From contig NZ_JHQS01000036.1 of assembly GCF_014843845.1 (NCBI RefSeq), forward strand, positions 1 through 64,000: DNA of 64,000 nt. The letters run 5' to 3'. Positions within the stretch are counted from its first letter, which is position 1. Each line of letters starts with the position of its first letter. This stretch comes from Mesorhizobium amorphae. GTDB taxonomy: Bacteria > Pseudomonadota > Alphaproteobacteria > Rhizobiales > Rhizobiaceae. The notes under the pieces were generated by a model. The model searched no databases and had not been told where the DNA came from. It saw only the letters and a list, made by a program, of their open reading frames with translations. The translations under genes and the position numbers were made by a program. Shown piece by piece: positions 6,952 to 37,440 of this stretch.

Positions 6952-6994
6952 TTGGTTGCACGACTGATTTCTCAGGAAGTCAGACAGCTACGGG

Positions 6995-7016: not shown

Positions 7017-7080
7017 TCCTTCCATCCGGGAGACATGCCGCCCGATCGAGCGCGAATGATCTCAAGATACGGAGGCTACC

Positions 7081-9126: not shown

Positions 9127-9147
9127 TCTGAGATCCGGGGGGATATC

Positions 9148-12009: not shown

Positions 12010-12023
12010 CCGGGTAATCAAAA

Positions 12024-15286: not shown

Positions 15287-15384
15287 ATTTGTTGACTCCT
15301 TCGCCTAGGCATGCAAATCCTCCTGCCGTCGACACGGTCGATGGAAGCCGTTGTCGCGAGAATTCAGACAGCAGGGAGGCCTCG

Positions 15385-16095: not shown

Positions 16096-17003
16096 AGTTC
16101 GAAGGTATCTACACACCGGCCATCACGCCACTCGGCCCCGACGGGCAGATAGATCGTGACGGCTTCGCGGCGGTGCTCGAGTCGCTCATCGAAGCCGGCG
16201 TGCACGGCATCATCGTTGGCGGATCGACGGGTGAATACTATGCCCAGAGCGCCCAGGAGCGCTTCGATCTCGCTGCCTACGCCAAGGAGGTGATTGGCAC
16301 CCGGCTTCCGCTCATCATTGGAACGGGCGCCACCAGGACAGAGGACTCGGTCGAATACGCCAAGGCGGCGAAGGAGATCGGCGCCGACGCCATTCTCGTG
16401 TCGTCGCCCCCATACGCCTTGCCGACGGAGCGTGAGAATGCGGTCCACGCGCTTACGGTCGACCGCGCGGCGAACCTTCCGATCATGCTCTACAACTACC
16501 CGGCCCGCATGGGAGTGACGATGAGAGAGGACTACTTCTCCCGCGTCGGCAAATCCAGGAACGTCGTGGCCATCAAGGAGAGCTCCGGCGAGATGGGCAA
16601 CCTCCATTTGCTGGCGCGGAAATTCCCCCATATCTCGCTCTCTTGCGGCTGGGACGACCAGGCGCTCGAATTCTTTGCATGGGGCGCCAGGAGCTGGGTC
16701 TGCGCCGGCTCCAATTTTCTCCCGCGCGAGCATGTCGCGCTCTACGAAGCCTGCGTGCTCGAAAGGAACTTCGACAAGGGCCGCGCCATCATGACCGCGA
16801 TGCTGCCGCTCATGGATTTCCTCGAATGCGGGAAGTTCGTCCAGTCGATCAAGCACGGCTGTGAGCTGATCGGGCTGAACGCGGGCCCGGTGCGGGCGCC
16901 GCTGCGCCCGCTCAATTCGCAAGAAAAGCGAACTCTCCAGACTGTCGTCGCCACCTTGAAGCGCACGGTCGCCCAGATCACGTCGGGAGCAAACAATGCA
17001 TGA
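16092..17003 (+). CDS. DapA/NAL-superfamily lyase, likely pyrroline-4-hydroxy-2-carboxylate deaminase-like
   Basis: 303 aa from a TTG that overlaps the TGA of the regulator gene. It is a TIM-barrel class I lyase of the dihydrodipicolinate synthase family: GGSTGEYY (43-50), Tyr134 in LYNYP and Schiff-base Lys162 in AIKESSG. In hydroxyproline catabolism a family member (HypD type) deaminates delta-1-pyrroline-4-hydroxy-2-carboxylate to alpha-ketoglutarate semialdehyde. The neighbours here (FAD oxidase, aldehyde dehydrogenase, epimerase homologue) fit that step, though the motifs alone do not fix the substrate. A true lysine-biosynthesis DapA is unlikely in this operon. Confidence 0.82.
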   Translation: MKFEGIYTPAITPLGPDGQIDRDGFAAVLESLIEAGVHGIIVGGSTGEYYAQSAQERFDLAAYAKEVIGTRLPLIIGTGATRTEDSVEYAKAAKEIGADAILVSSPPYALPTERENAVHALTVDRAANLPIMLYNYPARMGVTMREDYFSRVGKSRNVVAIKESSGEMGNLHLLARKFPHISLSCGWDDQALEFFAWGARSWVCAGSNFLPREHVALYEACVLERNFDKGRAIMTAMLPLMDFLECGKFVQSIKHGCELIGLNAGPVRAPLRPLNSQEKRTLQTVVATLKRTVAQITSGANNA

Positions 17004-18513
17004 ACCTTTGACCGCTACCGAATACAAGGCGATCGCCGCGAACATCCAGTTCCCGACCAATGCCTTCATTGACGGGGCGTTCCGTCCTGCGAATTCCGGC
17101 AAGACATTCAAGACGACCAATCCGGCGACGGGCGACACACTTGCCGAGATCGCGGCGTGCGACTCGACCGACGTCGATCTCGCCGTGGCCAAGGCCAGGC
17201 AAGCCTTCGATGACGGCCGCTGGCATCTCCGCTCGCCTGGCGAGCGCAAGGCCGTGCTGCTCAAATTCGCCAAGCTCCTGGAGCGCAACCGTCACGAACT
17301 TGCGGTCATGGAGAGCCTCGATAGCGGCAAGCCGGTCCGCGAATGCCAGACCGTCGATATTCCGGATACGATCCACACCATCCGTTGGCATGCCGAACTG
17401 ATCGACAAGCTCTATGACAACGTCGCTCCCGTGGGCTCGAACGCGCTGACCATGGTCGTGCGCGAGCCGGTCGGCGTCGTCGGTTGCGTCCTGCCGTGGA
17501 ACTTCCCGCTGCTGATGCTGGCCTGGAAGATCGGTCCGGCGCTTGCCGCGGGATGCTCGGTGATCGTGAAGCCCGCCCAAGAGACGACCCTGACGACGCT
17601 TCGGGTCGCCGAACTGGCGCATGAGGCCGGTATTCCGGCGGGCGTCTTCAATGTTGTCCCGGGCGGCGGCAAGGATGTCGGCGAACCGATCGGCATGCAT
17701 ATGGGCGTCGACATGGTGGCGTTCACCGGATCGACGCCGACGGGTCGGCGCTTCCTGCACTACGCAGCGGACTCCAATCTCAAGCGCGTCGTCCTCGAAT
17801 GCGGCGGCAAGAACCCGGCAGTGGTTCTGGAGGATGCCGAGGACCTCGACCTCGTCGCCGAACAGGTGGTCAACGGCGCGTTCTGGAACATGGGTGAGAA
17901 CTGCTCGGCCACGTCGCGGCTCATCGTCCACGCCAAGATCAAGGACGAGTTGCTGCAACGGATCGGCGCCTATATGCGCGAGTGGAAGACGGGCGATCCG
18001 CTCGACCCGGAAAACCGCATCGGGGCGCTCGTCAGCAAGAGCCATTTCGACAAGGTGAAATCCTTCCTCGGTGACGTGAAGACCGAAAAGCTCTCCGTCG
18101 TCCATGGCGGCGGCACGCACAAGGGTATCTACATCGAGCCGACCGTCGTCGATGGTGTCACGCCTGCGAGCCGCCTGTTTCAGGAGGAGATTTTCGGACC
18201 GATCCTTTCGGTCACGACGTTCAATTCCCTGGCCGAAGCCGTGGCTCTCGCCAACGACACGAACTACGGCCTGACCGCATCCGTCTACACCGGAAGCCTG
18301 CGCAAGGCGATCAAGCTTTCGCGCGAAATCCGGGCCGGCGTGGTGACCGTCAACTGCTTCGGTGAAGGCGACGCGACGACGCCATTCGGCGGCTACAAGG
18401 AATCCGGTTTCGGCGGACGCGACAAGTCGGTCTTCGCGCATGACAATTATTGTGAATTGAAGACGGTCTGGATCGACGTCTCGGATCGCTCGCTCGACGA
18501 GACCATCCGGTGA
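16996..18513 (+). CDS. NAD(P)+-dependent aldehyde dehydrogenase (PuuC-like)
   Basis: 505 aa; its start overlaps the previous stop by 8 bases, indicating translational coupling. It is a full-length aldehyde dehydrogenase with the PWNFP segment, cofactor-loop FTGSTPTGRR, the general-base Glu in LECGGKNP and the catalytic Cys in ENCSATSR. The C-terminal PFGGYKESGFGGRDKS resembles PuuC-type enzymes. In the proposed pathway it would oxidise alpha-ketoglutarate semialdehyde to alpha-ketoglutarate; PuuC-type enzymes otherwise act on amino-aldehydes. It is cytoplasmic. Confidence 0.9.
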   Translation: MHEPLTATEYKAIAANIQFPTNAFIDGAFRPANSGKTFKTTNPATGDTLAEIAACDSTDVDLAVAKARQAFDDGRWHLRSPGERKAVLLKFAKLLERNRHELAVMESLDSGKPVRECQTVDIPDTIHTIRWHAELIDKLYDNVAPVGSNALTMVVREPVGVVGCVLPWNFPLLMLAWKIGPALAAGCSVIVKPAQETTLTTLRVAELAHEAGIPAGVFNVVPGGGKDVGEPIGMHMGVDMVAFTGSTPTGRRFLHYAADSNLKRVVLECGGKNPAVVLEDAEDLDLVAEQVVNGAFWNMGENCSATSRLIVHAKIKDELLQRIGAYMREWKTGDPLDPENRIGALVSKSHFDKVKSFLGDVKTEKLSVVHGGGTHKGIYIEPTVVDGVTPASRLFQEEIFGPILSVTTFNSLAEAVALANDTNYGLTASVYTGSLRKAIKLSREIRAGVVTVNCFGEGDATTPFGGYKESGFGGRDKSVFAHDNYCELKTVWIDVSDRSLDETIR

Positions 18514-19841
18514 ACGACATCGTCGTCAAGCGGCTTCCGGCGGAATCCGGAACCTCGGGCTGGGAGGCGATCAGCAGACGCAGCTTCCCCGTCCGGACGC
18601 TCGACGGCGACATGTCGGCCGACTGGCTGGTCATCGGTGCGGGCTTCGCCGGCCTTTCCGCCGCGCGGCGGCTGTCTCAACTTCGGCCTGGCGACAGGAT
18701 CGTCGTGCTGGAGGCGGGAGAGATCGCCAAAGGCACCTCGGGCCGGAACTCCGGCTACATGATCGACGTGCCGCACAATCTGTCCTCGGGCGAGTATTCC
18801 GTCGCCGACGAGACCGCGACCAAGGTGGAGATCGCTCAGAACCGTTTTGCGATCTCTTTCGCCGCCGACGTCGCCGCGGAATACGACATGTCCGAGCGCA
18901 CCTTCGATCCATCTGGCAAGATCAACAGCGCGGCGACGGAGCGCGGAATAAAGCTCAACGCGAATTATGGCCGCTCGCTCAAGAGCATCGGCGAGGAGCA
19001 CCGCTTCCTGGATGCGGGCGAGATGCGGGAGATCACCGGATCGTCCTACTATCTCGGAGGTCTCTACACGCCGGGCGCCGTGATGATCCAGCCCGCCGAC
19101 TATATCCGCGGTTTCGCCGCCGGGCTGGCATCGAAAGCCGACATATTCGAGCACTCGCCGGTGCTCAAACTCGAGTGCCAGCGCGGAATGTGGAAGGCCG
19201 TATCGCGCAACGGAAGCGTCACGGCGCCGAAAGTCATCCTGGGCATCAATGGCCACATCGAGGATTTCGGCCATTTCCGCGACCGTTTGATGCACATCTT
19301 CACCTACGCATCGATGACGGCCCCCTTCACCTCGAGGTCCACGGGCGAGGACAGGTGGGCCTTGCTTCCGGCTGATCCGATGGGTGCGACAGTCAGGAAG
19401 ATCACCACCGATGGATCCTCTCGTATCGTGATCCGGACCCGGTTCACTTACGACTGGACTGTTCAAGTGGGTGAGAAGCGCCTGGCCGGGATCGCCGCCG
19501 AGCAGCGGACATCCCTGAACGCCCGATTTCCGGATCTCAAGAACGTGCCGTTCGAGCACGTCTGGGCAGGACGGCTTTGCCTCAGCCGGAACCATGTGCC
19601 CGCCTTCGGCGAAATCGAAAAAGGCCTCTACTCCGCGTGCTGCGAGAACGGTCTTGGGACCGTGAAAAGCACGCTTGCGGGCGTCATGGCCGCCGATCTG
19701 GCGACCGGTACCCGCTCGGACATGCTCGACAAATTCTCGGATCAGCCGGAGCCCGCGCGCCTCCCTCCGGAGCCGCTCGCGTGGCTCGGCGTCAACACCG
19801 TGATCCGATGGCAGGAATTGCGTGCAGGCCGCGAGGGATGA
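18510..19841 (+). CDS. FAD-dependent amine/D-amino-acid oxidase (DAO family, PuuB/OrdL-like)
   Basis: 443 aa, start overlapping the aldehyde dehydrogenase stop by 4 bases. The dinucleotide-binding motif VIGAGFAGLSAARR (from ~43) and the TSGRNSGYMID segment place it in the DAO superfamily near gamma-glutamylputrescine oxidase (PuuB/OrdL). Such enzymes oxidise secondary amines or D-imino acids to imines. In this operon the natural reading is oxidation of cis-4-hydroxy-D-proline, or a related cyclic amine, to the pyrroline acted on by the DapA-like lyase. The exact amine is not shown by sequence. Confidence 0.88.
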   Translation: MNDIVVKRLPAESGTSGWEAISRRSFPVRTLDGDMSADWLVIGAGFAGLSAARRLSQLRPGDRIVVLEAGEIAKGTSGRNSGYMIDVPHNLSSGEYSVADETATKVEIAQNRFAISFAADVAAEYDMSERTFDPSGKINSAATERGIKLNANYGRSLKSIGEEHRFLDAGEMREITGSSYYLGGLYTPGAVMIQPADYIRGFAAGLASKADIFEHSPVLKLECQRGMWKAVSRNGSVTAPKVILGINGHIEDFGHFRDRLMHIFTYASMTAPFTSRSTGEDRWALLPADPMGATVRKITTDGSSRIVIRTRFTYDWTVQVGEKRLAGIAAEQRTSLNARFPDLKNVPFEHVWAGRLCLSRNHVPAFGEIEKGLYSACCENGLGTVKSTLAGVMAADLATGTRSDMLDKFSDQPEPARLPPEPLAWLGVNTVIRWQELRAGREG

Positions 19842-19922
19842 GCCCTCGCCGCGCAATATGAAGGCGGAGCCGACCGCGAAGTCTTCAAGTGAAAATGGGA
19901 ACAAAAATAAGGAGTGAGTAAA

Positions 19923-20774
19923 ATGAAGACGTTGTGGAAAGCGCTCTGCGCTGCCGCGATGGTCGGTATGACCATGCTGTCCGCTCAGGCGGAAGAAAAG
20001 AATATTACCGTGGGCACGATGTCGTGGGAGGACCTCACCCCCATCACCGGCATCACCAAGAAGGTGCTTGAAGACGCCGGCTACACCGTAAAGGTCGTGG
20101 ACTTTTCCGAATGGGGCATCGCCTACGCCGCGCTGACCAAGGGCGACATCCAGATCCTCGCCTCGCAGACGGACTATGTCGCCCAGGACTACTGGGACAA
20201 GAACAAGAAGAAGCTCGAGAAGATCTCCCCGGTTTCGCATGGCCTGTTCCAGGGCGTGGCGGTGCCGAAATACGTGACCATCGACTCCATGGACCAGTTG
20301 AACGACAACGCCGACAAGTTCGGCGGCAAGATCGTCGGTATCGAGCCGGGATCCGGTCTCATGCGCGATACGACTAACTCGGTGAAGGCATACGACCTGA
20401 AACTGCAGCTCGTGGAGGGCAGCACCGCTGCCATGACCGCAGCGCTCAAGTCGGCCGTCGACCGCAAGGAATGGATCGCCGTCACCATCTGGGAGCCCTC
20501 CTGGATGATGCAGAAATATGACGTCAAGTTCCTCAAGGATCCGAAGGCAGTTTTCCCGCCGCCGCAGAGCTATTACTGGATCGGCAAGAAGGGCTTCTCC
20601 GCCGACAATCCGCATGCGCGCGAAGTGATCGCCAGCGTCTACGTGCCGCTTGCCGACATCACCGCGATCAACTCTGCCGTCAACGAGGGCAAGACCATGG
20701 ACGAGGCCATCAAGGCCTGGACCGACAGCCATGCTGACCTGCTGAAGCGTTGGGAAAACATCAAGGCCGAGTAA
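19923..20774 (+). CDS. Glycine betaine/proline-type ABC substrate-binding protein (OpuAC/ProX family)
   Basis: 283 aa. The ATG at 19923 is chosen because AAGGAG lies 8 bases upstream. A signal peptide covers ~1-23 (cleavage after SAQA). The OpuAC fold has many aromatics in ligand-loop positions (MSWED, YWDKNKK, TIWEPSWMM, YYWIG), as in binding proteins that cage quaternary ammonium or N-methylated imino acids. It is the periplasmic receptor of the importer encoded by the next three genes. Embedded in a hydroxyproline-like catabolic operon, it probably delivers a carbon/nitrogen source rather than an osmolyte. Confidence 0.9.
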   Translation: MKTLWKALCAAAMVGMTMLSAQAEEKNITVGTMSWEDLTPITGITKKVLEDAGYTVKVVDFSEWGIAYAALTKGDIQILASQTDYVAQDYWDKNKKKLEKISPVSHGLFQGVAVPKYVTIDSMDQLNDNADKFGGKIVGIEPGSGLMRDTTNSVKAYDLKLQLVEGSTAAMTAALKSAVDRKEWIAVTIWEPSWMMQKYDVKFLKDPKAVFPPPQSYYWIGKKGFSADNPHAREVIASVYVPLADITAINSAVNEGKTMDEAIKAWTDSHADLLKRWENIKAE

Positions 20775-20852: not shown

Positions 20853-21941
20853 ATGGGGAACGCAATGAACACTGCGATGAACGACTCCAGCGAAGTGCTG
20901 GTCGATTGCCAGTCCGTATGGAAGATTTTCGGTGGTCGTGCTCCGGCTGCCGTCAAAGCCATAACCGAACGTGGGCTCTCCAAGACACAGGTGCTGCAGG
21001 ATTTCGACTGCGTGGTGGGTGTCTCGGATGCCAGCCTCCAGGTCCGCCGCGGCGAGATCTTCTGCATCATGGGGCTGTCGGGGAGCGGCAAGTCGACGCT
21101 GATCCGCCTGCTGAACCGTCTGATCGAACCAAGCCTCGGCAAGATCACGGTGAAAGGAAAGGAGATCGCGAAGCTCAATGCATCTGAGCTCCGCGACATG
21201 CGCGCGCGGAATATCGGCATGGTGTTCCAGAGCGTGGCCCTGCTTCCTCACCGAACAGTCCTCGAGAACGCCGCTTTCGGTCTTGAGGCCCAGGGCGTTG
21301 CAAAAGAGGAGCGCCACAGGATCGCCCGCGCGGCCCTCGAAAAGGTTGGGCTTGCAGACTGGACGTCGCGCTATCCCAGGGAACTGTCCGGCGGCATGCA
21401 GCAGCGCGTTGGCCTCGCAAGGGCCATAGCGGCAGATCCCGAGATCATCCTCATGGACGAACCGTTCAGTGCCCTCGACCCGCTGATCCGCCGCCAATTG
21501 CAGGATGAATTCCGACAGCTGACGAAGTCGCTCGGCAAGTCCGCCGTCTTCATCACCCACGACCTCGAGGAAGCCATCCGCATCGGCGACCGCATCGCCA
21601 TCATGAAGGACGGCGTCATCGTCCAGGTCGGAACAGCCGAGGAAATCGTGACCAAACCCGCCGACGACTACGTCTCCGAATTCGTGGCGGGCATATCCAG
21701 GATCCACCTGGTCAAGGCGCACACCGTGATGCGGCCCGTCGCCGAGTTCAAGAATTCGCAGCCGAATTGCGATGTAAACGAGCTGCTTCGGACTTCTCCG
21801 GAGGCCGATATTGGCGAACTGATCGACCTCACCATGCAATCCGATCGCGACGCGGTTGCGGTCGTCGAGAACGGCACTGTGGTCGGTGTCGTCACCATCC
21901 GTGGTTTGCTCCGCGGTGTTGCCGGCAAGCCAGCAGGTTAG
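20853..21941 (+). CDS. Glycine betaine/proline-type ABC ATPase with CBS domain (OpuAA/ProV family)
   Basis: 362 aa from the ATG at 20853 (a second ATG at 20865 is possible). Walker A GLSGSGKST at 74-82, signature LSGGMQQRVGLARA and Walker B ILMDEPFSALDP are intact. The C-terminal ~80 residues (from about 275) look like a CBS region, used in ProV/OpuAA proteins to sense ionic strength or adenine nucleotides. It energises uptake through the two permeases encoded immediately downstream. Confidence 0.92.
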   Translation: MGNAMNTAMNDSSEVLVDCQSVWKIFGGRAPAAVKAITERGLSKTQVLQDFDCVVGVSDASLQVRRGEIFCIMGLSGSGKSTLIRLLNRLIEPSLGKITVKGKEIAKLNASELRDMRARNIGMVFQSVALLPHRTVLENAAFGLEAQGVAKEERHRIARAALEKVGLADWTSRYPRELSGGMQQRVGLARAIAADPEIILMDEPFSALDPLIRRQLQDEFRQLTKSLGKSAVFITHDLEEAIRIGDRIAIMKDGVIVQVGTAEEIVTKPADDYVSEFVAGISRIHLVKAHTVMRPVAEFKNSQPNCDVNELLRTSPEADIGELIDLTMQSDRDAVAVVENGTVVGVVTIRGLLRGVAGKPAG

Positions 21942-21956: not shown

Positions 21957-22805
21957 ATGGACATTTCAGTCATTACAGACACGTTCGATGCCTGGACGGA
22001 TACTACGCTCGGCTGGATCAGCGACAACGGCGAATGGTTGTTCGAATTTATCCGGAGCGTGCTTGAAGGAACCTACGACGGCGTCCTGTGGCTTCTGCAA
22101 CTGGCACCGTTTTATGTGATCGCCATTATCGCAGCGTTGCTCGGATGGCGATTGATCAACGCTTTGTCCGGCGTCCTCGCGGGGCTTGCCCTGGTCTTTT
22201 GCGCTGTCATGGGCCTCTGGACCGAAACCATGAGCACATTGGCCCTGGTGATCACCGCCACGATCCTCGCCCTTTTCGTCGGCATTCCCATTGGCATCGT
22301 GGCGGGCTTTGTCAGATCGTTCGACCGATTTCTTGAGCCGGTGCTCGACCTGATCCAGACCCTGCCGCCTTACATCTATCTGCTTCCTGCGATCGCGCTG
22401 CTCGGCTATGGGCCCGCGACCGCGCTCATCGCCACCTTTATCGTCGCGATGCCGCCCGCCATTCGGCTCACCTCGCTTGGCATCCGCATGACACCGCTCG
22501 AATTCATCGAGCTTGGCCAGGCAAGCGGCCTGACACCCTGGCAGATGTTCATCAAGATCAGGCTTCCTTTCGCCATTCCAAGCGTGATGGCAGGGATCAA
22601 CCAGAGCTTGATGATGGCGTTCGGCATGGTCGTCATCGCGGGTATCGTCGGTTCGGGAGGTCTCGGCGAGACCATCTATTCAGCCGTGCGCACGCTCGAC
22701 ATCGCCACGTCGATCAACGCCGCGATCGCGATCGTCATCCTGACCATGGTGCTTGACAGACTCACTCAGAGCGCGGCCCGCCGTGCCAGCGGAGAAGCGA
22801 GATGA
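21957..22805 (+). CDS. ABC permease, ProW/OpuAB family (first of two)
   Basis: 282 aa, with an N-terminal amphipathic stretch of ~40 residues and then about six membrane helices (for example FYVIAIIAALLGWRLI). The EAA coupling loop is present (ELGQASGLTPWQMFIKI). The stop overlaps the start of the second permease gene (ATGA), so the pair is translationally coupled and likely forms a heterodimeric channel. Confidence 0.9.
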   Translation: MDISVITDTFDAWTDTTLGWISDNGEWLFEFIRSVLEGTYDGVLWLLQLAPFYVIAIIAALLGWRLINALSGVLAGLALVFCAVMGLWTETMSTLALVITATILALFVGIPIGIVAGFVRSFDRFLEPVLDLIQTLPPYIYLLPAIALLGYGPATALIATFIVAMPPAIRLTSLGIRMTPLEFIELGQASGLTPWQMFIKIRLPFAIPSVMAGINQSLMMAFGMVVIAGIVGSGGLGETIYSAVRTLDIATSINAAIAIVILTMVLDRLTQSAARRASGEAR

Positions 22806-23650
22806 ACCCTGATCTGGTCCGGTTTTCGCCGGGAGCTTACCTGGCCCCTGTAGTGGATTGGCTGAATACGAACTTCCATCCGTTCTTCGATGCGGTGACC
22901 AAGCTGATCGAAGCCGTGCTGAGCGCGATCGAAGCCACTCTCCTCTACCCGCCGCCCTACGCGACGATCGTCGTTGCAGTCCTTCTCGCCGCCTTCTTCG
23001 TCGGCGTTCGGGTCTCGGTGGTGACAGCCATCGCGCTCACCTTCTGCTTGCTGGCCGGGTTCTGGACCGCCTCGATGCAGACGCTGGCACTGGTGACGGT
23101 GGCGGTGATCATTTCCGTGTCGATCGCCTTCCCGCTCGGCATCCTGGCATCGCGGTATAAGAAATTCGAGGCCGGGATCCGGCCCGTGCTGGACATCATG
23201 CAGACCGTGCCGCCGTGGGTCTATCTCATCCCCGCCGTCATGATCTTCAGCCTCGGCCGTGTGCCGGCAATCATCGCGACGATCGTCTACGGCATACCTC
23301 CGATGCTGCGCCTGACCACCCTGGCCTTCAACCAGGTGCCGAAAGACCTCATGGAGCTTGGCCATGCGACCGGGACTTCACCGCGGTCGATTCTGTTCAA
23401 GATCGAAATCCCCTCGGCCACCCCGACACTGCTGGTCGGCCTCAACCAGTGCATCCTCCTGTCGCTGGCAATGGTCGTCCTGGCGGGCCTCGTCGGAGCA
23501 GGCGGTCTTGGAGCCGAAGTGACGCGGGGACTGACGCGGATGGAAATGGGTCTCGGCCTCCGGGCCGGACTGTCGATCGTCGCGCTTGCGATCTTCCTCG
23601 ACAGGCTTTCCAGGGGCGCGCTGGAACGCGGTCGGAGTCCCGTAAGGTAA
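22802..23650 (+). CDS. ABC permease, ProW/OpuAB family (second of two)
   Basis: 282 aa, the same length as its neighbour and clearly related, with its own EAA loop (ELGHATGTSPRSILFKI). Most ProXWV systems use one permease gene product as a homodimer. Two adjacent distinct permeases suggest a heterodimer, and so a specialised substrate path. It is the last transporter gene before the epimerase homologue. Confidence 0.9.
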   Translation: MNPDLVRFSPGAYLAPVVDWLNTNFHPFFDAVTKLIEAVLSAIEATLLYPPPYATIVVAVLLAAFFVGVRVSVVTAIALTFCLLAGFWTASMQTLALVTVAVIISVSIAFPLGILASRYKKFEAGIRPVLDIMQTVPPWVYLIPAVMIFSLGRVPAIIATIVYGIPPMLRLTTLAFNQVPKDLMELGHATGTSPRSILFKIEIPSATPTLLVGLNQCILLSLAMVVLAGLVGAGGLGAEVTRGLTRMEMGLGLRAGLSIVALAIFLDRLSRGALERGRSPVR

Positions 23651-23676: not shown

Positions 23677-24675
23677 ATGCGCCGCAGTTTCTTCTGCATC
23701 GATTCCCACACCTGCGGTAATCCGGTCCGTCTGGTCGCGGGAGGTGGCCCCTTGCTGCCGCATGTCCCGATCGCCGAGCGGCGTGACCTGTTCATGCGCG
23801 ACCATGACTGGATCCGGCAGGCATTGATGTTCGAACCGCGCGGGCACGACATCATGTCGGGCGCGATCATCTATCCTGCGTATCGTGAGGACTGTGACTT
23901 CGCCGTGATCTTCATCGAAGTCAGCGGCTGCCTGCCGATGTGCGGCGCCGGCACGATCGGCCTGGTGACGGCGGCAATCGAGGAAGGCCTCGTAACGCCC
24001 AGGGTGCCGGGCAGACTGTCGATCGAGACGCCGGCCGGCAGGGTCGATATCGAATACGAGAAGCCGGGCGCGTTCGTGGACTCCGTCCGGATGTTCAACG
24101 TTGCCAGCTATCTGCATGCCGCGGACGTCGCCGTCGATATCCCCGGTCTCGGCCGGCTCGTCGTCGACATCGCCTATGGCGGCAACTACTACGCCGTCGT
24201 CGAGCCGCAGGAAACATGGCAGGGCCTGGACGGAATGTCGGCGAGCGACATCGTGGACCTCAGCCGCAGCCTCCGCGACGCACTCGAACCCGTCTGCGAT
24301 CCAGTCCATCCCGAAGACGACAAGATACGCGGCGTGCACCACGCCATCTGGTGCGGCAAGCCTTCCAGCGGCAACGCCGACGGCCGCGGCGCGGTGTTCT
24401 ACGGCGACAAGGCCATCGACCGTTCACCAGGCGGCACTGGAACTTCGGCCCGCATGGCGCAACTCCATGGCAAGGGGCGGTTGAAGGTCGGCGACACCTT
24501 CCGCCAGGAAAGCCTGATCGGCACGGTGTTCGAGGGCCGCGTCGAGGCGGAGGCCGACATAGGCCCCTTCAAGGGCATCAAGCCCAGTGTCGGCGGCTGG
24601 GCGCGGATCATCGGCCACAACACGATCTTCGTCGACGATCGCGATCCGTTGGCCCATGGGTTCCAGATCAACTAG
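23677..24675 (+). CDS. Proline racemase/4-hydroxyproline epimerase homologue lacking second catalytic Cys
   Basis: 332 aa from the ATG at 23677; the frame extends upstream, but that part overlaps the permease gene. It matches the 4-hydroxyproline 2-epimerase group over its full length (IDSHTCGNPVRLVAGGGP, FEPRGHDIMSG, VDIAYGGNYYAVV, DDRDPLAHGFQ). The first catalytic Cys is present (Cys89 in PMCGAGTIG), but the His two residues later, usual in PMCGHG, is Ala91. The second catalytic Cys of the usual SPCGTGT is Gly252 (SPGGTGT). Trans-3-hydroxyproline dehydratases carry Thr at the second position, so this is neither standard class. It could be a one-base enzyme, a lyase, or specific for an altered substrate. 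Confidence 0.85.
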   Translation: MRRSFFCIDSHTCGNPVRLVAGGGPLLPHVPIAERRDLFMRDHDWIRQALMFEPRGHDIMSGAIIYPAYREDCDFAVIFIEVSGCLPMCGAGTIGLVTAAIEEGLVTPRVPGRLSIETPAGRVDIEYEKPGAFVDSVRMFNVASYLHAADVAVDIPGLGRLVVDIAYGGNYYAVVEPQETWQGLDGMSASDIVDLSRSLRDALEPVCDPVHPEDDKIRGVHHAIWCGKPSSGNADGRGAVFYGDKAIDRSPGGTGTSARMAQLHGKGRLKVGDTFRQESLIGTVFEGRVEAEADIGPFKGIKPSVGGWARIIGHNTIFVDDRDPLAHGFQIN

Positions 24676-24920: not shown

Positions 24921-25910
24921 ATGAAAGCAGCCAATGAAGCTCCGGGGGCCGGCCGATTGAAGATCGGCTTTATCCTGGCTCGTTCCTTCACTCTTTCCGC
25001 GTTCGCTTTGTTCGTCGACACTCTCAGATTGGCGAGCGACGAGATCGACAGGTCTGGCAGGGTTTTGGCTGATTGGCAGGTGCTGGCGAGCACCCGGCAC
25101 CTGATCACCTCGAGTTGTGGTGTGCAGGTCGCTCCGACATCGGATTTCGTGGATCCCAGGGAATTGCACTACATCGTTGTCGTCGGCGGTCTGCTCAACA
25201 ACGAGTTCCCGGTCGACAGCGAGACAGTCAGCTACCTGAAGAGAGCGGCAGCCAGCAAGGTTCCCCTGATCGGGGTTTGCACCGGCACGTTCATCCTCGC
25301 TGAGGCGGGCCTGATGAAATACCATCGGACCTGCGTAAGCTGGCTCCACTATGAGGCTTTCCGCCAGCGCTTCCCGGATCATGACGTCCGGGCGGACCGC
25401 TTGTTTAATCTCGACCAAGCCAGAGGTTCTTGTGCCGGGGGCAGCAGCGCGGCCGACATGGCCGCGTCGATCGTCAGGCGTCACATCAGCAATGAGGCTG
25501 AGAGAAACGCCCTCGAAGTGTTGCAGATCGAGAAGGCGCGCGCGCCCTCGGACATCCAGCCGCGCCGGCCCCCTTTCATCGAGTGCAAAAACCCCCGGCT
25601 CAAGGCGGCGCTGATCATCATGGAGAACCATGTCGACAACAAACTCTCCATACCCAAGTTGGCGGCATCTGTCGGATTGTCCCGGAGGCAGCTCGAGCGC
25701 CTCTTCAGGGAAGAAACAAAGAACTCTCCGGCACTGGTTTACCTAAGGGTGCGTCTTGAGCGGGCGAAGCGTCTCCTGATGCAGACCAAGGCTCCGATGA
25801 TCGAGATCGCCATCGAGGTCGGGTTTGAAAACGCCTCGCATTTCTCGAAGGTCTTCCACAAGACGTTCGGGCAACCGCCAAGCAAGTTCAGGTCAGAGAT
25901 TTCAAACTGA
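24921..25910 (+). CDS. GlxA-type AraC-family regulator with DJ-1/PfpI domain
   Basis: 329 aa. Residues ~14-190 form a DJ-1/PfpI-like (type 1 glutamine amidotransferase-like) sensor domain with Cys120 in GVCTGTF at the nucleophile-elbow position. Residues ~225-325 carry the two AraC helix-turn-helices (LSIPKLAASVGLSRRQLERL and IEIAIEVGFENASHFSKVF). The group includes GbdR and CdhR, which control betaine and carnitine catabolism in Pseudomonas. That fits its place directly after a betaine-type transporter and catabolic operon. It sits 245 bases after the previous stop and could be transcribed separately. Confidence 0.88.
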   Translation: MKAANEAPGAGRLKIGFILARSFTLSAFALFVDTLRLASDEIDRSGRVLADWQVLASTRHLITSSCGVQVAPTSDFVDPRELHYIVVVGGLLNNEFPVDSETVSYLKRAAASKVPLIGVCTGTFILAEAGLMKYHRTCVSWLHYEAFRQRFPDHDVRADRLFNLDQARGSCAGGSSAADMAASIVRRHISNEAERNALEVLQIEKARAPSDIQPRRPPFIECKNPRLKAALIIMENHVDNKLSIPKLAASVGLSRRQLERLFREETKNSPALVYLRVRLERAKRLLMQTKAPMIEIAIEVGFENASHFSKVFHKTFGQPPSKFRSEISN

Positions 25911-25932: not shown

Positions 25933-27552
25933 CTACCGCAACGCGTCTTGCAAGATCATCTCCGCCGCCTTCTCGGCTATCATGATGACCGGCGAATTGG
26001 TGTTGCCGGAGACGATGGTAGGCATGATCGAGGCGTCGGCGATGCGCAAGCCCGCAAGGCCATGGACACGTAAGCGGTCGTCGACCACGGCCATCCTGCC
26101 CTCCCCCATCTTGCAGGTTCCGACCGGGTGAAAGATGGTCGTGGCGATGTCGCCCGCCTTGCGCACCAGATCATCGTGACTGGAGAATTGCGGTCCTGGC
26201 AACATCTCTTCCGGCGAGAAACGTGCAATGGCCTTCGCCTTCATCAGCCGCCGCGCATGCTCGATCGAGGCCACTGCGATGCTGCGGTCGCCCTTCGTCG
26301 ATAGATAATTCGGCCGGATCTTCGCGGGCTGTCGCGGGTCGTCGATTGCCATATGCACGGTGCCCCTGCTCTCGGGGCGCAGATTGCAGACCGAGACGGT
26401 CACGGCCGGGAAACGATGTAGCGGCTCGCCCAGTCGATCGGTGCTGAGTGGCTGCACATGATATTCGAGGTCGGGTGTTGAGAGCCGCGGGTCGGAACGG
26501 GCGAAGATGCCGAGTTGGCTTGGCGCCATGGACAGCGGCCCCCTGCGCCACAGGGCATATTCGGCCCCCATCGCCGCGCGGCTGAAGAGATTGTGGTAGC
26601 GCTGGTTGAGGGTAACGGCGTTCTTGACCTTGAAGACCATGCGTAGCTGCAGATGGTCCTGCAGATTTTCGCCGACACCCGGCATGGCGTGCCGGACCTG
26701 GATGCCAAGCTGCGACAGGAGTTCAACCTGTCCGACGCCGGAGAGTTCCAAGAGCTTCGGCGAATTGATGGCGCCGGCGGCCAGAATGGTTTCGCGGGCG
26801 CTGGCGAAATGCAGCGAGCCACCTTGACGGAAGACGACACCGTTGACGCGGCGGCCGTCGACCTCCAGCCGTTCGGTTTCGGCGCCGGTCAGGATACGAA
26901 GATTGGTGCGGCCCTTTATGCCACGCAGGAAGGCCTTGGAAGCGTTCCAGCGTACTCCCCTCCTCTGGTTGACCTCGAAATAGCCCGAGCCTTCATTTGT
27001 GCCCTGGTTGAAGTCTTCCGTGCGCGGAATTGCGAGCTCTTCGGCAGCATCGCGAAAGGCGTCGAGGATCGGCCAGGACAGCCGTTGCCGCTCGACACGC
27101 CACTCGCCGCCGGCGCCATGCATCGCGCTGGCGCCACCGTGATAATCCTCCGACTTGCGGAAATAGGGCAACACGTCGTCCCAGCCCCATCCGGCATTGC
27201 CGGCCTGCCGCCAGCCATCATAGTCGGCAGCCTGGCCGCGCATATAGATCATGCCGTTGATCGAGGAGCAGCCGCCAAGCACCTTGCCGCGTGGATAGTT
27301 GAGACTGCGTCCGTTCAACCCCAGGTCCGGCTCGGTCTTCATCAGCCAGTCGGTGCGGGGGTTGCCCATGCAATAGAGATAGCCGATCGGGATATCGATC
27401 CAATGATAGCGGTCGCTGCCGCCGGCTTCGAGGAGCAGGACTTTGTTTCGCGGGTCGGCGGAGAGCCGGTTGGCGAGCACGCAGCCCGCCGAACCGGCGC
27501 CGACGACGACATAGTCGAACTCACCGAAATCAGATGGACGAACGACGGTCAC
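25933..27552 (-). CDS. GMC-family FAD oxidoreductase (choline/alcohol dehydrogenase-like)
   Basis: 539 aa from a GTG that overlaps the kinase stop (GTGA). The frame stays open 11 codons further upstream, but no better start is visible. It has the dinucleotide-binding motif VGAGSAGC near residue 20 and GMC signatures, including [18 protein letters not shown] and a C-terminal [19 protein letters not shown], with the catalytic His region at [12 protein letters not shown] enzymes oxidise alcohols, sugars or polyols to carbonyls and pass electrons to quinone or oxygen. As the last gene of the sugar/polyol operon it probably oxidises a hydroxyl of the imported compound; choline is less likely here. 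Confidence 0.88.
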
Positions 27553-29060
27553 TGGAGAGCCTGTCGGCTGGCGATGCGTTCCCACATCGGGGCCATTGCC
27601 TCGTTGATCTCGCCATAGAGCTGGTAGCGCGCGGCATAGGCTGGGGCAAGCGCAGCGTTCGGCGCATAGCGGCGCGCGGCCGAGGTCATCGCCATGGCAC
27701 CGGCAGCGAAATCCGCGAAGACGCCGACGCCGGTACCTGCTGCAATCGCCGCTCCCAGCGCGCCGGTTTCGCGGCTCTTCGCGACGGTGACCGGCACGCC
27801 AAGCACGTCAGCAAAAATTTGCGCCCAGACGCCGCTGCGTGAACCGCCGCCGGATAACACTGCTTCATCGAACCGCGCGCCCGCCGCATGCAGCGTTTCG
27901 ATATGACGCTTGTGTTCGAAGACAACGCCCTCGAACAGGGCACGCAGAATATGCGCCCGAGTATGCCAGCCAGCCATGCCATAAAAGCCGGCGCGAGCCT
28001 GGCCGTTCTTCTGTGAACCGTAGAGGAAGGGGTGGTAGATCGGGATATCGCCGGTCGGATCTATGGAAGCGACAAGGTCGCTGCACAGTTCGAACGGCGA
28101 CTTTCCTTCCGGTACATGATCGAGGAACTCGCGGACGATCCATTCCAGATTGGCGGCCGAAGTAGCGCTGGATTCAATCGCCAGATAGCGCTGCGGATCG
28201 AAGGTCGACAGCATGAAGATCGACGGCTCGCGGATCGGCTCGTCGGTGATGACCTGATTGATGCTCCAGGTGCCGGCAATGATCGAAGCGGCACCCGTGC
28301 GGGTGACGCCGGACCCGATGGCGCTGGCCACGACGTCGAACAGGCCGGCCACGACGGGAGTGCCGGCGCGCAGGCCGGTGAGCGACGCGACATCGCGCGT
28401 GACATGGCCGGCAATCTCGGCCGATTCCAGGACCGGCGGCAGCAGGTCGGCGCAGTCACCAAGGCCATAGGCCTCGAGCAAGTCCTGCTCGTAGCGCCGT
28501 CCCGGCATCGACAGCAAACCGCAACCGGACATATCGGTGGCATCCGTGGAGCGCGCGCCGGTCAGTCGGTTGACGATAAGATCCTTGCACAAGAATGCCG
28601 TGCCGATGCGGCCGAACAGTTCCGGGTCGAACCGCTTCAGCCAGGCGAGCAAGGTCGGCGACTGCGCGGCCCAGGGTTTTTGCAGGCAATACTTGTAGGT
28701 ACGGTCGCCGACATTACTCTTCGCCCATTCGCCGACCAGGCCGACGGCGCGGGTGTCGAGCGACTGGATGCCGATCAGCGGCGCCCCCGCCCGGTCGAGT
28801 GCATAAAGGCCGTTGCCGTGCCCGGCGCAGCCGATCGCGACGATGTCGCCGGCGTCGATGCCGGCTTCAGCGATGCAGCGGCCGATCACCGTGACGGCGT
28901 TGCGCCACAGTTCACCAAGATCGCGCTCGACATGGCCGGGCTTCGGCATCGACGAATGCCCGTCGAGCGCCGCAAACGCCAGTTCGCGTCCCGTCATGTC
29001 GAAGATGATGGCCTTGATGACCGTATTGCCCGCATCAAGGCCCAGAATGTAACCGCTCAT
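27549..29060 (-). CDS. FGGY-family carbohydrate kinase
   Basis: 503 aa, usual family length. The N-terminal phosphate loop [16 protein letters not shown] and C-terminal [19 protein letters not shown] match FGGY sugar/polyol kinases. It would phosphorylate the imported or reduced/oxidised substrate at ATP cost. Its start follows the aldolase stop by 21 bases and its stop overlaps the GMC gene. The combination of kinase, aldolase, SorC regulator and RbsABC importer resembles the lsr (autoinducer-2) layout, but the GlpD-like and alcohol-oxidising enzymes argue for a polyol. The substrate is unknown. Confidence 0.9.
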
Positions 29061-29081
29061 CGGCTTCTCCCGCAGTCGGCC

Positions 29082-29924
29082 TTACGCCTGGTTGTACAGA
29101 TCCCAGGCGGTGGCGCCATCAGCGCCGTCGTGAATGATCGCCATCAGGCCCCGCACGACGGCGCTCGGATTGGCGTGCTGATAGATGTTGCGGCCATAGA
29201 CCATACCCAGTGCGCCTTGCGCCATCAGCGCCGCCGATTTGTCGAACACGGCGTGCAGATCCTCCTTGCCGCCGCCGCGTACCAGCACCGGGCAGCGCGC
29301 CGCCTCGACCACGCGGTGGAAGTCGTTGGCGTCGGTCGTCGGGTCTGCCTTGATGACATCGGCCCCCATCTCGCGCGCCAGCCGCGTCAGCGTGACGATC
29401 TTCCCGGCATCGCCGTCGACCATGTAGCCACCATGCTCGGCGACCGGCAGCATGGCCAGGGGTTCGATCATCAGCGGCATGCCGTACTTTTCGCAGTCGG
29501 CGCGTACGCGGGCGATGTTCTGAACGCATTGGCGGAAGAGGTCCGGTTCGTCGGGCAGCATGAACAGATTCACGACCACGCAAGCGGCATCCATTTCGAT
29601 GGCGCCGATCAGCGGTTCGACCTCGTTTTGCAGCACCGCCCACATCGCCCGGTGGCGCACCTTGTTGTACGGGTTGCCCATGTCGATGCGCATCACCAGT
29701 GCCGGCTTGTCCTTGCCGGGCAGGTTTTGCAGCAGGTCGGCCTGGCCGTAGTTCATCTGGATAGCATCCGGCCCGGCCTTCGCCAGTTTTTCGACCACGC
29801 CGGCCATGTCTTCCAACCCAACAAGGAAGCTCGGCTCGTTGCAGACCCCATGATCGATGGCAACGTCGAGGCAGCGTCCGTTGCCGAACAGCCGGTTCAT
29901 GCGGACTTTCTTGTTCACGCGCAT
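29082..29924 (-). CDS. DeoC/FbaB/LsrF-type class I aldolase
   Basis: 280 aa. The ATG at 29924 has AAGGAG upstream and overlaps the preceding stop by 10 bases. It is a TIM-barrel aldolase of the DeoC/LacD/FbaB family: an early acidic DVAIDHG, a Schiff-base Lys in ADVIKADPT, and a phosphate-binding tail (VRGGGK, MVYGRNIYQ) as in LsrF and FbaB. It would cleave or rearrange a ketose phosphate formed by the kinase and the GlpD-like dehydrogenase. The phosphate motif favours a phosphorylated substrate. Confidence 0.87.
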   Translation of the reverse strand: MRVNKKVRMNRLFGNGRCLDVAIDHGVCNEPSFLVGLEDMAGVVEKLAKAGPDAIQMNYGQADLLQNLPGKDKPALVMRIDMGNPYNKVRHRAMWAVLQNEVEPLIGAIEMDAACVVVNLFMLPDEPDLFRQCVQNIARVRADCEKYGMPLMIEPLAMLPVAEHGGYMVDGDAGKIVTLTRLAREMGADVIKADPTTDANDFHRVVEAARCPVLVRGGGKEDLHAVFDKSAALMAQGALGMVYGRNIYQHANPSAVVRGLMAIIHDGADGATAWDLYNQA

Positions 29925-31633
29925 ATTGCGCTCCTTTTGTTGTTTTCGCCGGGAAGGTTCGGCAGAAGGACGCCGTGCTGGTGCTCCAGCAGCGACAGAA
30001 AGGCGGTCCGTTCGGTATCGGCCTGAGCCATGCTCCAGCCCTTGCAGATGGCCAGGATTGAAAGCACGGCATCGACCAGTTGGCGTGTCAGGTCGCCTGC
30101 TATGGCTATGGTGGTACGACGCAGGAAGATGTCAGCCAGCGACTCGACGTGCTCACGCTCAATGATCAGCCGGATTTCACCGGTGGAATAATCCGTGCCA
30201 GGCAACATCGGGTCCGGCACGACCGAAATTGCCGCCGCGATTCCGCCCGCCGACGTGCCGTAGCGTTCCAGAAGAGTTTGCGCGCGCGGCATCGGCAATC
30301 CGTGTTCCGCCGCCAGCCTGGCACACCAGTCGGCGGGATCGGAAGGAAAATCGCGGCCACCGCCGATGGCGAGATCCTCGGTACCGACCGTGCGTACCAG
30401 CCCCGACCGCTCCAGCGCCATGTCGGCTGCCAGCGCGCCAAACGAGCGAAACGTCGTCCACTTGCCGCCGATCATGCACAGCGTCGCCGGCAAATTGCCA
30501 ACCGGCTCGACGAATTCGCAGAAATGGTCGCGCGGGATGCGGCCCGTGAAACTGTGCTTGCTGGCTGGCAACGGCCTGACGCCCGAGAAGCGGAAGACGA
30601 TCTCATGCTTGGCGATTTTGATCGATGGGAAGACAAAGGCCAGCGACTGCAGGATGTACTGGAGTTCGTCGTCCTCGCAGCGCACGGTGTCAGGATCGTC
30701 GACGCGGATTTCGGTCGAGCCGATCAGAACCTTGCCGAGATAGGGAAACAGGACGCAGATGCGTCCATCCTCGTTCTCGTAATAGACCATGTTCGCACCA
30801 AGCGCGTCCTGGAGCTCCTGGTTGTCGACGATCAGGTGCGAGCCTTTGGTGCCGCCCATCATGCGCGGTGCTGGCGCGCCGATCGCCTTGTTCGTCAGGT
30901 CGATCCAGCCGCCGGTGGCGTTGATGACGAGGCGCGGGCGCAGCGACAGGGTCTCCCCCGAAACGGTATCGGTCAGCGCGAGGCCGTCTTGGTCGGAGCC
31001 GATTCGCGCATAGTTGAGCGCACGCGCGGCGCGTGAAGCCGCCATCGCGTCGTTCAGCATTTCAAGGCCAAGCCGCTCGGGTCGACTCACCCAGGCGTCG
31101 TAATAGGTCGCCGAACTACGGGTCGCCGGATTGATGGCCGGCCACGTCTTCAGCGTTTCCTTGCGCCCTCGGAAGCGATGGGTCGGCATCAGCCGGCGCG
31201 ATGCCGTGAAGACGTCATAGAGCGTCAGCCCGGCCTTGATGACGAGTGCGCCGCGCCGGCTCGGCCGCCGGGTGAGGCCGAGGAAACGGACGGCGCCATT
31301 GGCGATGCCGGAGAAGATGTCGAAGATCGGCACCGTCGTCGGCAGCGGCGCGACGTAGTGCGGCGCATTCCGCAAGAGCCGGTCGCGTTCCCGCAGCGAT
31401 TCCTTGACCAGCTTGAACTCGCCATTCTCCAGATAGCGCAGGCCGCCATGCACCATGCGCGAAAGCGCTGCGCTGGCGCCGCTGCAATAATCGCCCTTCT
31501 CGGCGAGCAGCACGTCGACGCCCTGCAGGGCAAGCTCGCGAAAGACGCTGATGCCGTTGATGCCGCCGCCGATAATCAGCACGGCAATGTCGGGCCGCTC
31601 TCGCAGCGCGGCGAGTGTTTCGGTGCGCTTCAT
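29915..31633 (-). CDS. GlpD-like FAD-dependent polyol-phosphate dehydrogenase
   Basis: 572 aa, longer than typical GlpD (~500). It has an N-terminal FAD motif (LIIGGGINGISVFREL), the SGASAALSRMVHGGLRYLE region of glycerol-3-phosphate dehydrogenases, and a C-terminal DAO_C-like helical domain (~430-560). It is membrane-associated by family. Rhizobial erythritol loci use a similar enzyme (EryB) to oxidise a tetritol phosphate. Here it sits between an aldo-keto reductase and an aldolase, so it probably oxidises a polyol phosphate to a ketose phosphate that the aldolase then splits. Confidence 0.87.
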   Translation of the reverse strand: MKRTETLAALRERPDIAVLIIGGGINGISVFRELALQGVDVLLAEKGDYCSGASAALSRMVHGGLRYLENGEFKLVKESLRERDRLLRNAPHYVAPLPTTVPIFDIFSGIANGAVRFLGLTRRPSRRGALVIKAGLTLYDVFTASRRLMPTHRFRGRKETLKTWPAINPATRSSATYYDAWVSRPERLGLEMLNDAMAASRAARALNYARIGSDQDGLALTDTVSGETLSLRPRLVINATGGWIDLTNKAIGAPAPRMMGGTKGSHLIVDNQELQDALGANMVYYENEDGRICVLFPYLGKVLIGSTEIRVDDPDTVRCEDDELQYILQSLAFVFPSIKIAKHEIVFRFSGVRPLPASKHSFTGRIPRDHFCEFVEPVGNLPATLCMIGGKWTTFRSFGALAADMALERSGLVRTVGTEDLAIGGGRDFPSDPADWCARLAAEHGLPMPRAQTLLERYGTSAGGIAAAISVVPDPMLPGTDYSTGEIRLIIEREHVESLADIFLRRTTIAIAGDLTRQLVDAVLSILAICKGWSMAQADTERTAFLSLLEHQHGVLLPNLPGENNKRSAICA

Positions 31634-31653
31634 TGCGGAAATGCCTCGTTTGC

Positions 31654-33626: not shown

Positions 33627-33647
33627 GATCGCTCTATCGTCTCGAAC

Positions 33648-34634: not shown

Positions 34635-34650
34635 CGTGGTTTCTCCCGCG

Positions 34651-36192: not shown

Positions 36193-36224
36193 GCCATGCT
36201 CCTGCGAAAAGAGTTCGGAAGGGG

Positions 36225-36249
36225 GCCGGAAGGGAAGACCCCTTCCGGC
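36225..36249 (-). terminator. Intercistronic hairpin after sugar-binding-protein gene
   Basis: GCCGGAAGGG pairs with CCCTTCCGGC (10 bp, 5-base loop) between the binding-protein stop and the ATPase start, with no T-run. It probably protects the upstream message or partly terminates it, so receptor exceeds transporter. Confidence 0.65.
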
Positions 36250-36272
36250 TCTGATGTCGGTTCGGCTCGAGA

Positions 36273-37304: not shown

Positions 37305-37412
37305 GATTCCTCCCTTGGCCGAAGCCATGCTCAATGACAATCGCGAACGCCGCAGCGTCTCGCTGTCTGGATTGATTGACGCCGGACATCCTCCAGAAAC
37401 CCGACGCTCCGA

Positions 37413-37440
37413 CAATTACCGGCTTTTCCAACGCTGTCAA
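37413..37440 (-). promoter_or_regulatory. Candidate sigma70-type promoter for the sugar operon
   Basis: On the minus strand TTGACA (37440-37435) is followed after 16 bases by TAATTG (37418-37413). It lies 109 bases upstream of the TTG start at 37304. The -10 is a poor match, so the call is tentative. Confidence 0.45.

Follow-up and report, generated by a model that had tools for sequence, protein, structure and literature searches.

The stretch of DNA analyzed here, referred to as the window, comprises 64,000 nucleotides of Mesorhizobium amorphae (contig NZ_JHQS01000036.1, positions 1–64,000), and its gene at 23677–24675 on the forward (+) strand encodes a 332-residue enzyme of the proline racemase superfamily. 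The protein is a complete member of that superfamily. PF05544 was matched over its full length (430 bits vs. a cut-off of 27; residues 7–330 against profile positions 1–325 of 325), and the NF010578 profile, named '4-hydroxyproline epimerase', gave 567 bits against a cut-off of 376. In an AlphaFold2 (AF2) model based on 45 sequences, the racemase fold was kept, with a mean predicted local distance difference test score (pLDDT) of 89.2 and a predicted template modelling score (pTM) of 0.89. All of the 22 best PDB matches to this model belonged to the proline racemase superfamily (Z 30.7–41.5), the closest folds being 6j7c (Z 41.5; root-mean-square deviation 2.2; 320 aligned residues), 1w61 (Z 41.4), 4lb0 (Z 39.3) and 4j9w (Z 37.6).

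According to the initial annotation, the protein keeps the first catalytic residue, Cys89, and carries Ala91 and Gly252 in place of a His and of the second catalytic Cys; translation and codons bore out all three readings. The retained thiol is encoded by TGC (23941–23943, +) and Ala91 by GCC (23947–23949, +), both within CLPMCGAGTIGL of the translated product, where the local motif is PMCGAG. Gly252 is encoded by GGC (24430–24432, +) within AIDRSPGGTGTSA, where the motif is DRSPGGTGT. In the AF2 model, helices begin at residues 90 and 252, which places the catalytic positions at predicted helix N-termini, that of helix 252–265 in the case of Gly252.

Residue changes and a fixed subclass

A total of 85 sequences sharing these residues (the Cys/Ala/Gly subclass) were compared with 30 canonical enzymes; alignment rows of at least 99% identity or with fewer than about 300 aligned residues had been dropped, and the 85 include a few same-genome duplicates (e.g., loci L176 and L019). 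Five residues were specific to the subclass and present in 85/85 rows, namely Ala91 (His in the canonical enzymes), Glu117 (Asp), Gly252 (Cys), Trp181 (Tyr/Phe) and Cys226 (Thr/Ala, with Cys in 0/30); a sixth, Arg276, was found in 84/85 (Val/Ile in the canonical rows). Cys226 (codon 24352–24354, +) is located on strand 222–227 of the model. At the next residue, 227 (24355–24357), the window protein has the Gly of the canonical enzymes, although nearly all subclass rows (98.8% of 85) have Asp.

Both groups have Cys89, Ser61, His222 (codon 24340–24342, +) and Asp248 in common; Cys89, His222 and Asp248 are accompanied by 85 further shared residues, and Tyr242 was nearly invariant across 45 aligned sequences. 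Ser61 aligns with a Phe of the T. cruzi enzyme, and the site-1 Phe of ProR is therefore lacking. In PMC1964878, Ser or Val at this position is described as the hydroxyproline-type letter that replaces the racemase Phe, and the equivalent of His222 is described as HyPRE-specific and said to favour hydrogen bonding to the 4-hydroxyl. Position 222 is Phe or Ile in three Ser/Thr relatives, and a Gly is aligned there in the Cys/Thr dehydratase 6r76. The site of Tyr242, mapped here through a printed alignment, is given in PMC4364671 as Cys or Tyr in hydroxyproline epimerases. The legend of Fig. 5 in PMC4113996 names His90 and Asp232 of 4-hydroxyproline 2-epimerase (4HypE) as contacts of the prolyl nitrogen, and Ala91 stands in the place of that His (His90 of Q4KGU2). 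The window protein thus retains the first catalytic residue of 4HypE enzymes, which may be Cys or Ser, and their 4-hydroxyl His together with Ser61; it lacks their second catalytic Cys and the nitrogen-contacting His, a role that falls to Ser in Ser-type enzymes. Since Ser61, His222, Tyr242 and Asp248 are kept and His91 and Cys252 are lost, the active site, as far as aligned residues can tell, is conserved on its hydroxyl side and changed on its nitrogen side and at the second base.

The initial annotation had proposed a possible new subclass and a search of the family for the Cys/Gly combination with Ala. A scan of one genome per species (84,980 species) gave 188 confirmed relatives, and the counts out of 80 given hereafter refer to the best 80 of these 188. 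These 80 share 73–94% identity with the window protein, come from rhizobia, Pseudomonas, Azospirillum and Microvirga, and all carry the Cys/Ala/Gly set. MCGAGT and DRSPGGT were seen directly in 79/80 slices. The 80th, a Mesorhizobium waimense orthologue (L042:10001–10997), has an early frameshift in the racemase-family gene, due to decay or assembly error, and both motifs are present when it is read as two pieces. In the alignment, 89 rows (a count that includes the window three times and some genomes twice) were Ala91/Gly252, all with at least 73% identity, and 30 rows at 56–63% were all His91/Cys252. Four further relatives at 53–61% and three own-genus paralogues at 60–62% were also His91/Cys252, so that no intermediate between Cys/Ala/Gly and Cys/His/Cys occurred among the relatives read, those at 53–63% being His91/Cys252 throughout. 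In line with this, a degenerate DNA pattern for DRSPGGTGT matched 7/299 genomes of the phylum, all seven in the subclass, and its Cys version matched 42/299; the reversed patterns, used as controls, gave 0 matches for either version. Chance or a sequencing slip is ruled out by the fixation of the set in the best 80 relatives.

In a 66-sequence tree, whose root rests on three long-branch outgroups, the 27 Cys/Ala/Gly rows formed one clade (support 100/100), the stem of which measured 0.68 changes per site. Ratios of nonsynonymous to synonymous substitution rates (dN/dS) between the window gene and seven relatives were 0.06–0.12 (7 pairs), which indicates purifying selection; together with the invariance of the residues, this rules out pseudogene decay, despite the frameshift in L042. 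The subclass is hence well supported as a distinct branch by its single clade, its fixed Cys/Ala/Gly set, purifying selection and an operon of its own, described below. The one-thiol branch probably arose once from Cys/His/Cys 4-hydroxyproline epimerases.

Subclass members occur alongside other members of the superfamily. Within the genus, a subclass copy at 85–100% identity was found in 13 of 119 genomes; a 57–62% relative, recorded by overall identity rather than residue by residue, is present in 117, including all 13 carriers. In 22 of 24 carrier genomes we found another superfamily member (E ≤ 1e-25), a 55–60% one in 10 of them; none was found at this threshold in the other two (G839 and G840). 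The window genome itself holds, elsewhere, an ordinary-looking Cys/His/Cys copy with its own DHDPS-family and aldehyde dehydrogenase (ALDH) genes (27% and 30% identity to those of the window, respectively), and the DAO-family gene near that copy gave no blastp link to the window DAO. Replacement of the ordinary 4HypE is thereby ruled out for the window genome.

An operon of its own

The gene belongs to an operon of overlapping or near-adjacent genes on the + strand, in the order GntR, DHDPS, ALDH, DAO, OpuAC-type binding protein, ProV, two ProW, racemase-family enzyme and GlxA/GbdR-like regulator. Conservation was assessed by tblastn of the window proteins over the best 80 loci with flanks of about 10 kb. 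The first gene encodes a GntR/FCD regulator (15289–16095; PF00392 and PF07729; matched in 70/80 loci), which may in fact begin some 90 bases further downstream (237 residues in L072 and L084). It is followed by a DHDPS-family enzyme that overlaps its neighbours, a candidate imino-acid deaminase or aldolase (16092–17003; PF00701; 77/80), and by a PuuC-like aldehyde dehydrogenase, a candidate alpha-ketoglutarate semialdehyde dehydrogenase (16996–18513; PF00171; 77/80). The nearest PDB chain to the latter was 7uyy (840 bits), which we take to be PA4189; literature searches on either name gave no further clue. The DAO-family FAD oxidoreductase (18510–19841; PF01266; 78/80) had L-pipecolate oxidase as its best NCBIfam match, at 113 bits against a cut-off of 600.

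The importer genes come next: an OpuAC-type substrate-binding protein (19914–20774; PF04069, 216 bits; 77/80), a ProV-like ATPase (20853–21941; NCBIfam proV subfamily, 364 bits vs. a cut-off of 327; 79/80) and two ProW-like permeases (21957–22805 and 22802–23650; both PF00528). The permeases scored 240 and 271 bits, respectively, with the choXWV permease model, below its cut-off of 363, and were matched in 80/80 loci. Only 26 bases separate the second permease from the racemase-family gene, and the GlxA/GbdR-like AraC regulator (24921–25910; GbdR model, 214 bits, below the cut-off of 480; 71/80) starts 245 bases downstream of that gene.

Some of these matches are distant relatives, namely DAO at 34–35% identity in three loci (L075, L083 and L085), ProV and the permeases at 34–41% in two (L013 and L067), and GbdR-like proteins at only 27–44% in several. 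In L009, L016 and L067, DHDPS and ALDH were not found within the flanks; for L009, a shortened operon is borne out by the annotated record. In the three Pseudomonas loci with the distant DAO, that gene lies with DHDPS and ALDH in a neighbouring module, which in L075 (12246–18500) also contains a different GntR and what reads by eye as an MFS transporter. The importer and the racemase-family gene may have been added to a core DAO–DHDPS–ALDH route. Overall, the subclass is kept strictly within an operon of its own, which includes an importer of the betaine type.

Relatives with Cys at the second site and an identical operon had been named by the initial annotation as evidence that would speak against its proposal. 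We therefore examined 24 control loci, comprising 20 from class surveys (high in the lists and with room on the contig), the copy in the window genome (L123) and three plasmid records (L138, L139 and L140), with residues read in all but L140 (23/24). None of the 24 has the operon. An OpuAC-type binding protein was matched at 1/24 (L165, 26% identity) compared to 77/80 subclass loci, the window DAO at 0/24, a window-type ALDH at 4/24 (one at 59%, L163) and a window-type DHDPS at 10/24 (27–33%). Partial likeness to the operon was seen at L163 and L165, and also at a further locus, L178. The latter, in the same genus (G889), has a Cys/His/Cys paralogue near what read by eye as peptide-type ABC genes and an alanine-racemase-like gene. 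It also encodes a protein 45% identical to the S. meliloti trans-3-hydroxyproline dehydratase, and its ALDH and DHDPS share 52% and 42% identity, respectively, with those of the window. Conversely, none of the 80 subclass loci gave a match to the DHDPS, oxidase, binding protein, Ldh or aconitase X encoded by the 4HypE operon of S. meliloti, and the ALDH of that operon was matched at 1/80, weakly. The subclass operon thus looks like a second, separately assembled pathway.

These findings bear on whether the protein could be catalytically dead and kept for binding, sensing or regulation, as might be suggested by the fact that a catalytic Cys and a ligand-contacting His have gone. However, Cys89, His222, Asp248 and the 85 further residues are still common to the canonical enzymes, the gene adjoins those of catabolic enzymes in 77/80 loci, and two regulators are already present, which makes such a role very improbable.

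Substrate, mechanism and alternatives

We favour, with a probability of approximately 0.4, the reading that the sequences point to a one-thiol enzyme for an N-methylated 4-hydroxyproline, either N-methyl-4-hydroxyproline or the dimethyl betaine betonicine, with 2-epimerisation as the most likely reaction. A betaine-like substrate, one of the possibilities raised by the initial annotation, is indirectly supported by the glycine-betaine-type importer, the N-demethylation neighbours and the retained 4-hydroxyl side; our best guess is an N-methylated 4-hydroxyproline that need not be a strict betaine. The fuller version, in which a cofactor-free single-thiol epimerase of 4-hydroxyproline betaine or N-methyl-4-hydroxyproline converged with HpbD and the second thiol yielded room for the N-methyl group, is more tentative. 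With regard to the importer, Trp38 and Trp193 of the binding protein were found in 77/77 sequences and correspond to two of the three Trp residues of the OpuAC betaine cage, while the third Trp and the carboxylate His of that cage have no counterpart (see below).

Genes linked to N-methyl compounds were found near many loci. The richest context is that of R. johnstonii plasmid pRL12 (L126), where an NADH:flavin oxidoreductase, ETF subunits and three glutathione-formaldehyde genes lie upstream of the operon and a Rieske oxygenase and an FAD-binding reductase lie downstream. Between the NADH:flavin oxidoreductase and the formaldehyde genes (L126:935–3985) are two proteins annotated as dimethylsulfoniopropionate (DMSP)-lyase family, the first of which matches PF16867. 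Probes taken from this locus and from four others, chosen after looking, matched within the flanks at 40/80 subclass loci vs. 2/24 controls. By type, the counts for subclass and controls were 28 vs. 0 for Rieske, 12 vs. 0 for ProC-like, 17 vs. 0 for glutathione-formaldehyde, 4 vs. 1 for TMADH-like, 1 vs. 1 for MttB and 1 vs. 0 for sarcosine oxidase genes. Both positive controls rested on 26–27% identity, and three positive subclass loci (L007, L015 and L020) on matches of at most 33%; when matches below 35% were left out, the counts were 37/80 vs. 0/24.

The Rieske genes came from a small number of lineages: 19 loci of the R. leguminosarum type and Pseudorhizobium, their sister, together with one Agrobacterium bin and six loci in Pseudomonas, to which a partial match in L014 is added. 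Since the three Rieske types are mutually 40–54% identical, more than one coming-together is suggested. These proteins are GbcA-like (411–504 bits, below the model cut-off of 670). The nearest PDB entries to the one from a Pseudomonas locus, at approximately 500 bits, were 3n0q, 4qup ('demethylase') and 3vca, with which the R. johnstonii protein gave 328–346 bits; 3vca we take to be the stachydrine demethylase Stc2. An MttB-family gene (PF06253) lies nearby in L013, and genes reading by eye as sarcosine oxidase in L067. Elsewhere in its genome, the window strain (G000) has a Rieske/reductase pair of the same kind, and eight matches to MttB-family methyltransferases were also recorded there.

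We infer the substrate, the reaction and the order of the steps as follows. The OpuAC-type ABC transporter would import the cation. Binding to the enzyme would rely on the contacts that have not changed (those to the 4-hydroxyl and the carboxylate, and Asp248), and the N-methyl group or groups would occupy the former places of His91, the holder of the N–H, and Cys252. Ala91 and Gly252 would give room, and the hydrogen bond removed would be one whose partner had already been lost to the methyl group. Cys89 would then take the alpha proton of the L-form, as the first-site residue accounts for the trans-to-cis direction in a Ser/Cys enzyme, the second-site Cys accounting for the reverse (PMC4113996). 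The second proton may come from water or another residue, possibly Cys226, on the vacated Gly252 face. With a 4-hydroxyl and no leaving group at C3, reprotonation would be the only simple fate of the intermediate, which points to 2-epimerisation. Demethylation by Rieske, MttB or flavin enzymes, encoded close to the operon or elsewhere depending on the species, would follow, and the DAO, DHDPS and ALDH of the operon would then lead to alpha-ketoglutarate.

Several observations weigh against an N-methylated substrate. Gln85 and Ala90 of the binding protein align with the third cage Trp and the carboxylate His of OpuAC, so that its ligand need not be a betaine. Window-type ALDH and DHDPS also occur near Cys/His/Cys enzymes and are therefore no marker of the substrate. 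The comparison of 40/80 with 2/24 is no blind test, as the probes were drawn from genes seen near the loci and five of the 40 positive loci are probe sources (L013, L018, L067, L078 and L050, the last being the same strain as L126). The 28 Rieske loci and the 17 loci with formaldehyde genes come mostly from a single R. leguminosarum-like group, which contributes 19 and 16 of them, respectively; the probe search found no demethylase gene in the flanks of most subclass loci, and no N-methyl probe matched anywhere in the 64-kb window. Finally, epimerisation without a second thiol is awkward.

The enzyme might instead epimerise unmethylated 4-hydroxyproline, perhaps as another stereoisomer, with water or Cys226 as the second acid/base. 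Its 53–63% identity to Cys/His/Cys relatives, its NF010578 score, the intact 4-hydroxyl side and the invariance of Cys226 would all agree with this, and 4HypE activity in Ser/Cys enzymes shows that an enzyme of this kind can do without the Cys pair (PMC4113996). However, P. aeruginosa HyPRE no longer epimerised once its second Cys had been mutated to Ser (C236S; PMC1964878). The published data do not follow simple residue rules: in that study, Cys-Thr and Ser-Cys proteins and also three Cys-Cys proteins showed neither of the activities in question, Ser/Cys proteins being inactive there and active in PMC4113996. Given that the nitrogen-binding His was lost along with the Cys, that the importer is of a different type, that the window genome has a Cys/His/Cys copy with its own operon and that 13/13 carriers in the genus hold a 57–62% relative, we regard this activity as unlikely.

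A one-base dehydratase, in which Cys89 would take the alpha proton and help in the loss of a 3-hydroxyl, as happens in the Cys/Thr and Ser/Thr trans-3-hydroxyproline dehydratases, Gly252 would be non-catalytic and a ProC-like reductase would take the imine, is slightly more doubtful; this reading and the preceding one are the chief alternatives. Dehydratases of the superfamily need one active-site base (PMC4113996), and a ProC-like gene (P5CR_dimer) lies directly downstream in 8/80 loci. The gene was nevertheless found in only 12/80 loci within the flanks and was not found in the window, His222 is kept in all 85 subclass rows, unlike in the Ser/Thr relatives and 6r76, and DHDPS, ALDH and DAO suit 4-hydroxyproline catabolism rather than a dehydratase route.

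The same pathway could also act on another compound, such as some other cation or a ring-expanded or altered imino acid (e.g., hydroxypipecolate, free or as its betaine). The best match of the DAO is the L-pipecolate oxidase model, whose cut-off it misses by far, DAO, DHDPS and ALDH all differ from the other hydroxyproline-type enzymes of the window genome, Gly and Ala enlarge the site, and the betaine cage is altered in the binding protein. On the other hand, the mapped ring and hydroxyl contacts are those of hydroxyproline epimerases, and a six-membered ring should press on them; we consider such a substrate improbable. An N-methylated 4-hydroxyproline remains the reading that we prefer.

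Other genes of the window and comparison with known systems

Several other regions of the window were read by eye. What resembles a type I secretion locus (5107–13364) combines a Gly/Asn/Asp-rich repeat protein and another large one with an ABC exporter and an HlyD-like protein, and is flanked by two similar GNAT/TPR-like proteins (1454–3109 and 13399–15021). Downstream of the subclass operon, on the opposite strand, 25933–37415 (−) holds a GMC oxidoreductase, an FGGY kinase, an aldolase, a GlpD-like protein, an aldo-keto reductase, a SorC-like regulator and ribose-type ABC genes, which probably form a polyol or sugar catabolic operon. Two long frames follow on the + strand, one of 1087 residues (37487–40750) that appears to fuse a SerC-type aminotransferase to 3-phosphoglycerate dehydrogenase, and one of 1138 residues (41409–44825) that appears to fuse an MFS transporter, an acyltransferase and an AMP-forming ligase.

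Public records label members of the subclass as 4-hydroxyproline epimerase. This label is doubtful because one catalytic Cys and the nitrogen-holding His are lost and the genes form their own conserved operon with a betaine-type importer, and it is probably wrong for the subclass; even if our guess at the substrate is not correct, many rhizobia and Pseudomonas carry genes of this kind for which it is open to doubt. The superfamily has been described as Cys/Cys, Ser/Cys, Cys/Thr and Ser/Thr, to which Cys/Gly without the nitrogen-binding His adds another arrangement, fixed clade-wide. Clusters lacking one or both Cys are mentioned in PMC4113996, in the main text of which the word Gly is absent; a member of the subclass may be among the targets screened there. 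We found no report of the Cys/Gly class, or of a betaine-acting enzyme of the proline racemase family, in a literature search that covered mainly papers outside subscription journals.

Compared to the cluster-1 4-hydroxyproline 2-epimerases, such as the enzyme encoded on S. meliloti pSymB, which we take to belong to cluster 1, the subclass is alike in full-length identity (53–63%) and predicted fold and keeps Cys89, Ser61, His222, Tyr242 and Asp248. It differs in Ala91, Glu117, Trp181, Cys226, Gly252 and Arg276, and its importer, oxidase, DHDPS and ALDH are different. With the trans-3-hydroxy-L-proline dehydratases (Cys/Thr or Ser/Thr), it shares a single thiol or hydroxyl at the first site and a second site without Cys. 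That second site is, however, Gly in the subclass and Thr in the dehydratases, identity to the Ser/Thr relatives is 27–32%, and the residues on the 4-hydroxyl side differ. The subclass lacks one residue that defines each known type, the second Cys for 4HypE and the Thr for the dehydratases.

The stachydrine and glycine betaine demethylation loci, with Rieske enzymes of the Stc2 and GbcAB types, offer a comparison at the level of gene neighbourhood. Genes of this kind lie beside the operon in strains resembling R. leguminosarum, in Pseudorhizobium, in the Agrobacterium bin and at the six Pseudomonas loci. They lie outside the core operon and were not found in the flanks of most loci, that of the window included.

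A motif KDEDK, with a metal, characterizes HpbD. The subclass belongs to PF05544 and has the cofactor-free racemase fold, which is unrelated to the enolase-superfamily fold of HpbD and of proline betaine racemase; HpbD, the 4-hydroxyproline betaine 2-epimerase, is placed in that superfamily by PMC5144071 and PMC11961199. If the favoured reading is true, plant-associated bacteria would have in the subclass a second, convergent enzyme for hydroxyproline betaine, unrelated to the first, and it would provide a clean test of how far the racemase fold works with one thiol.

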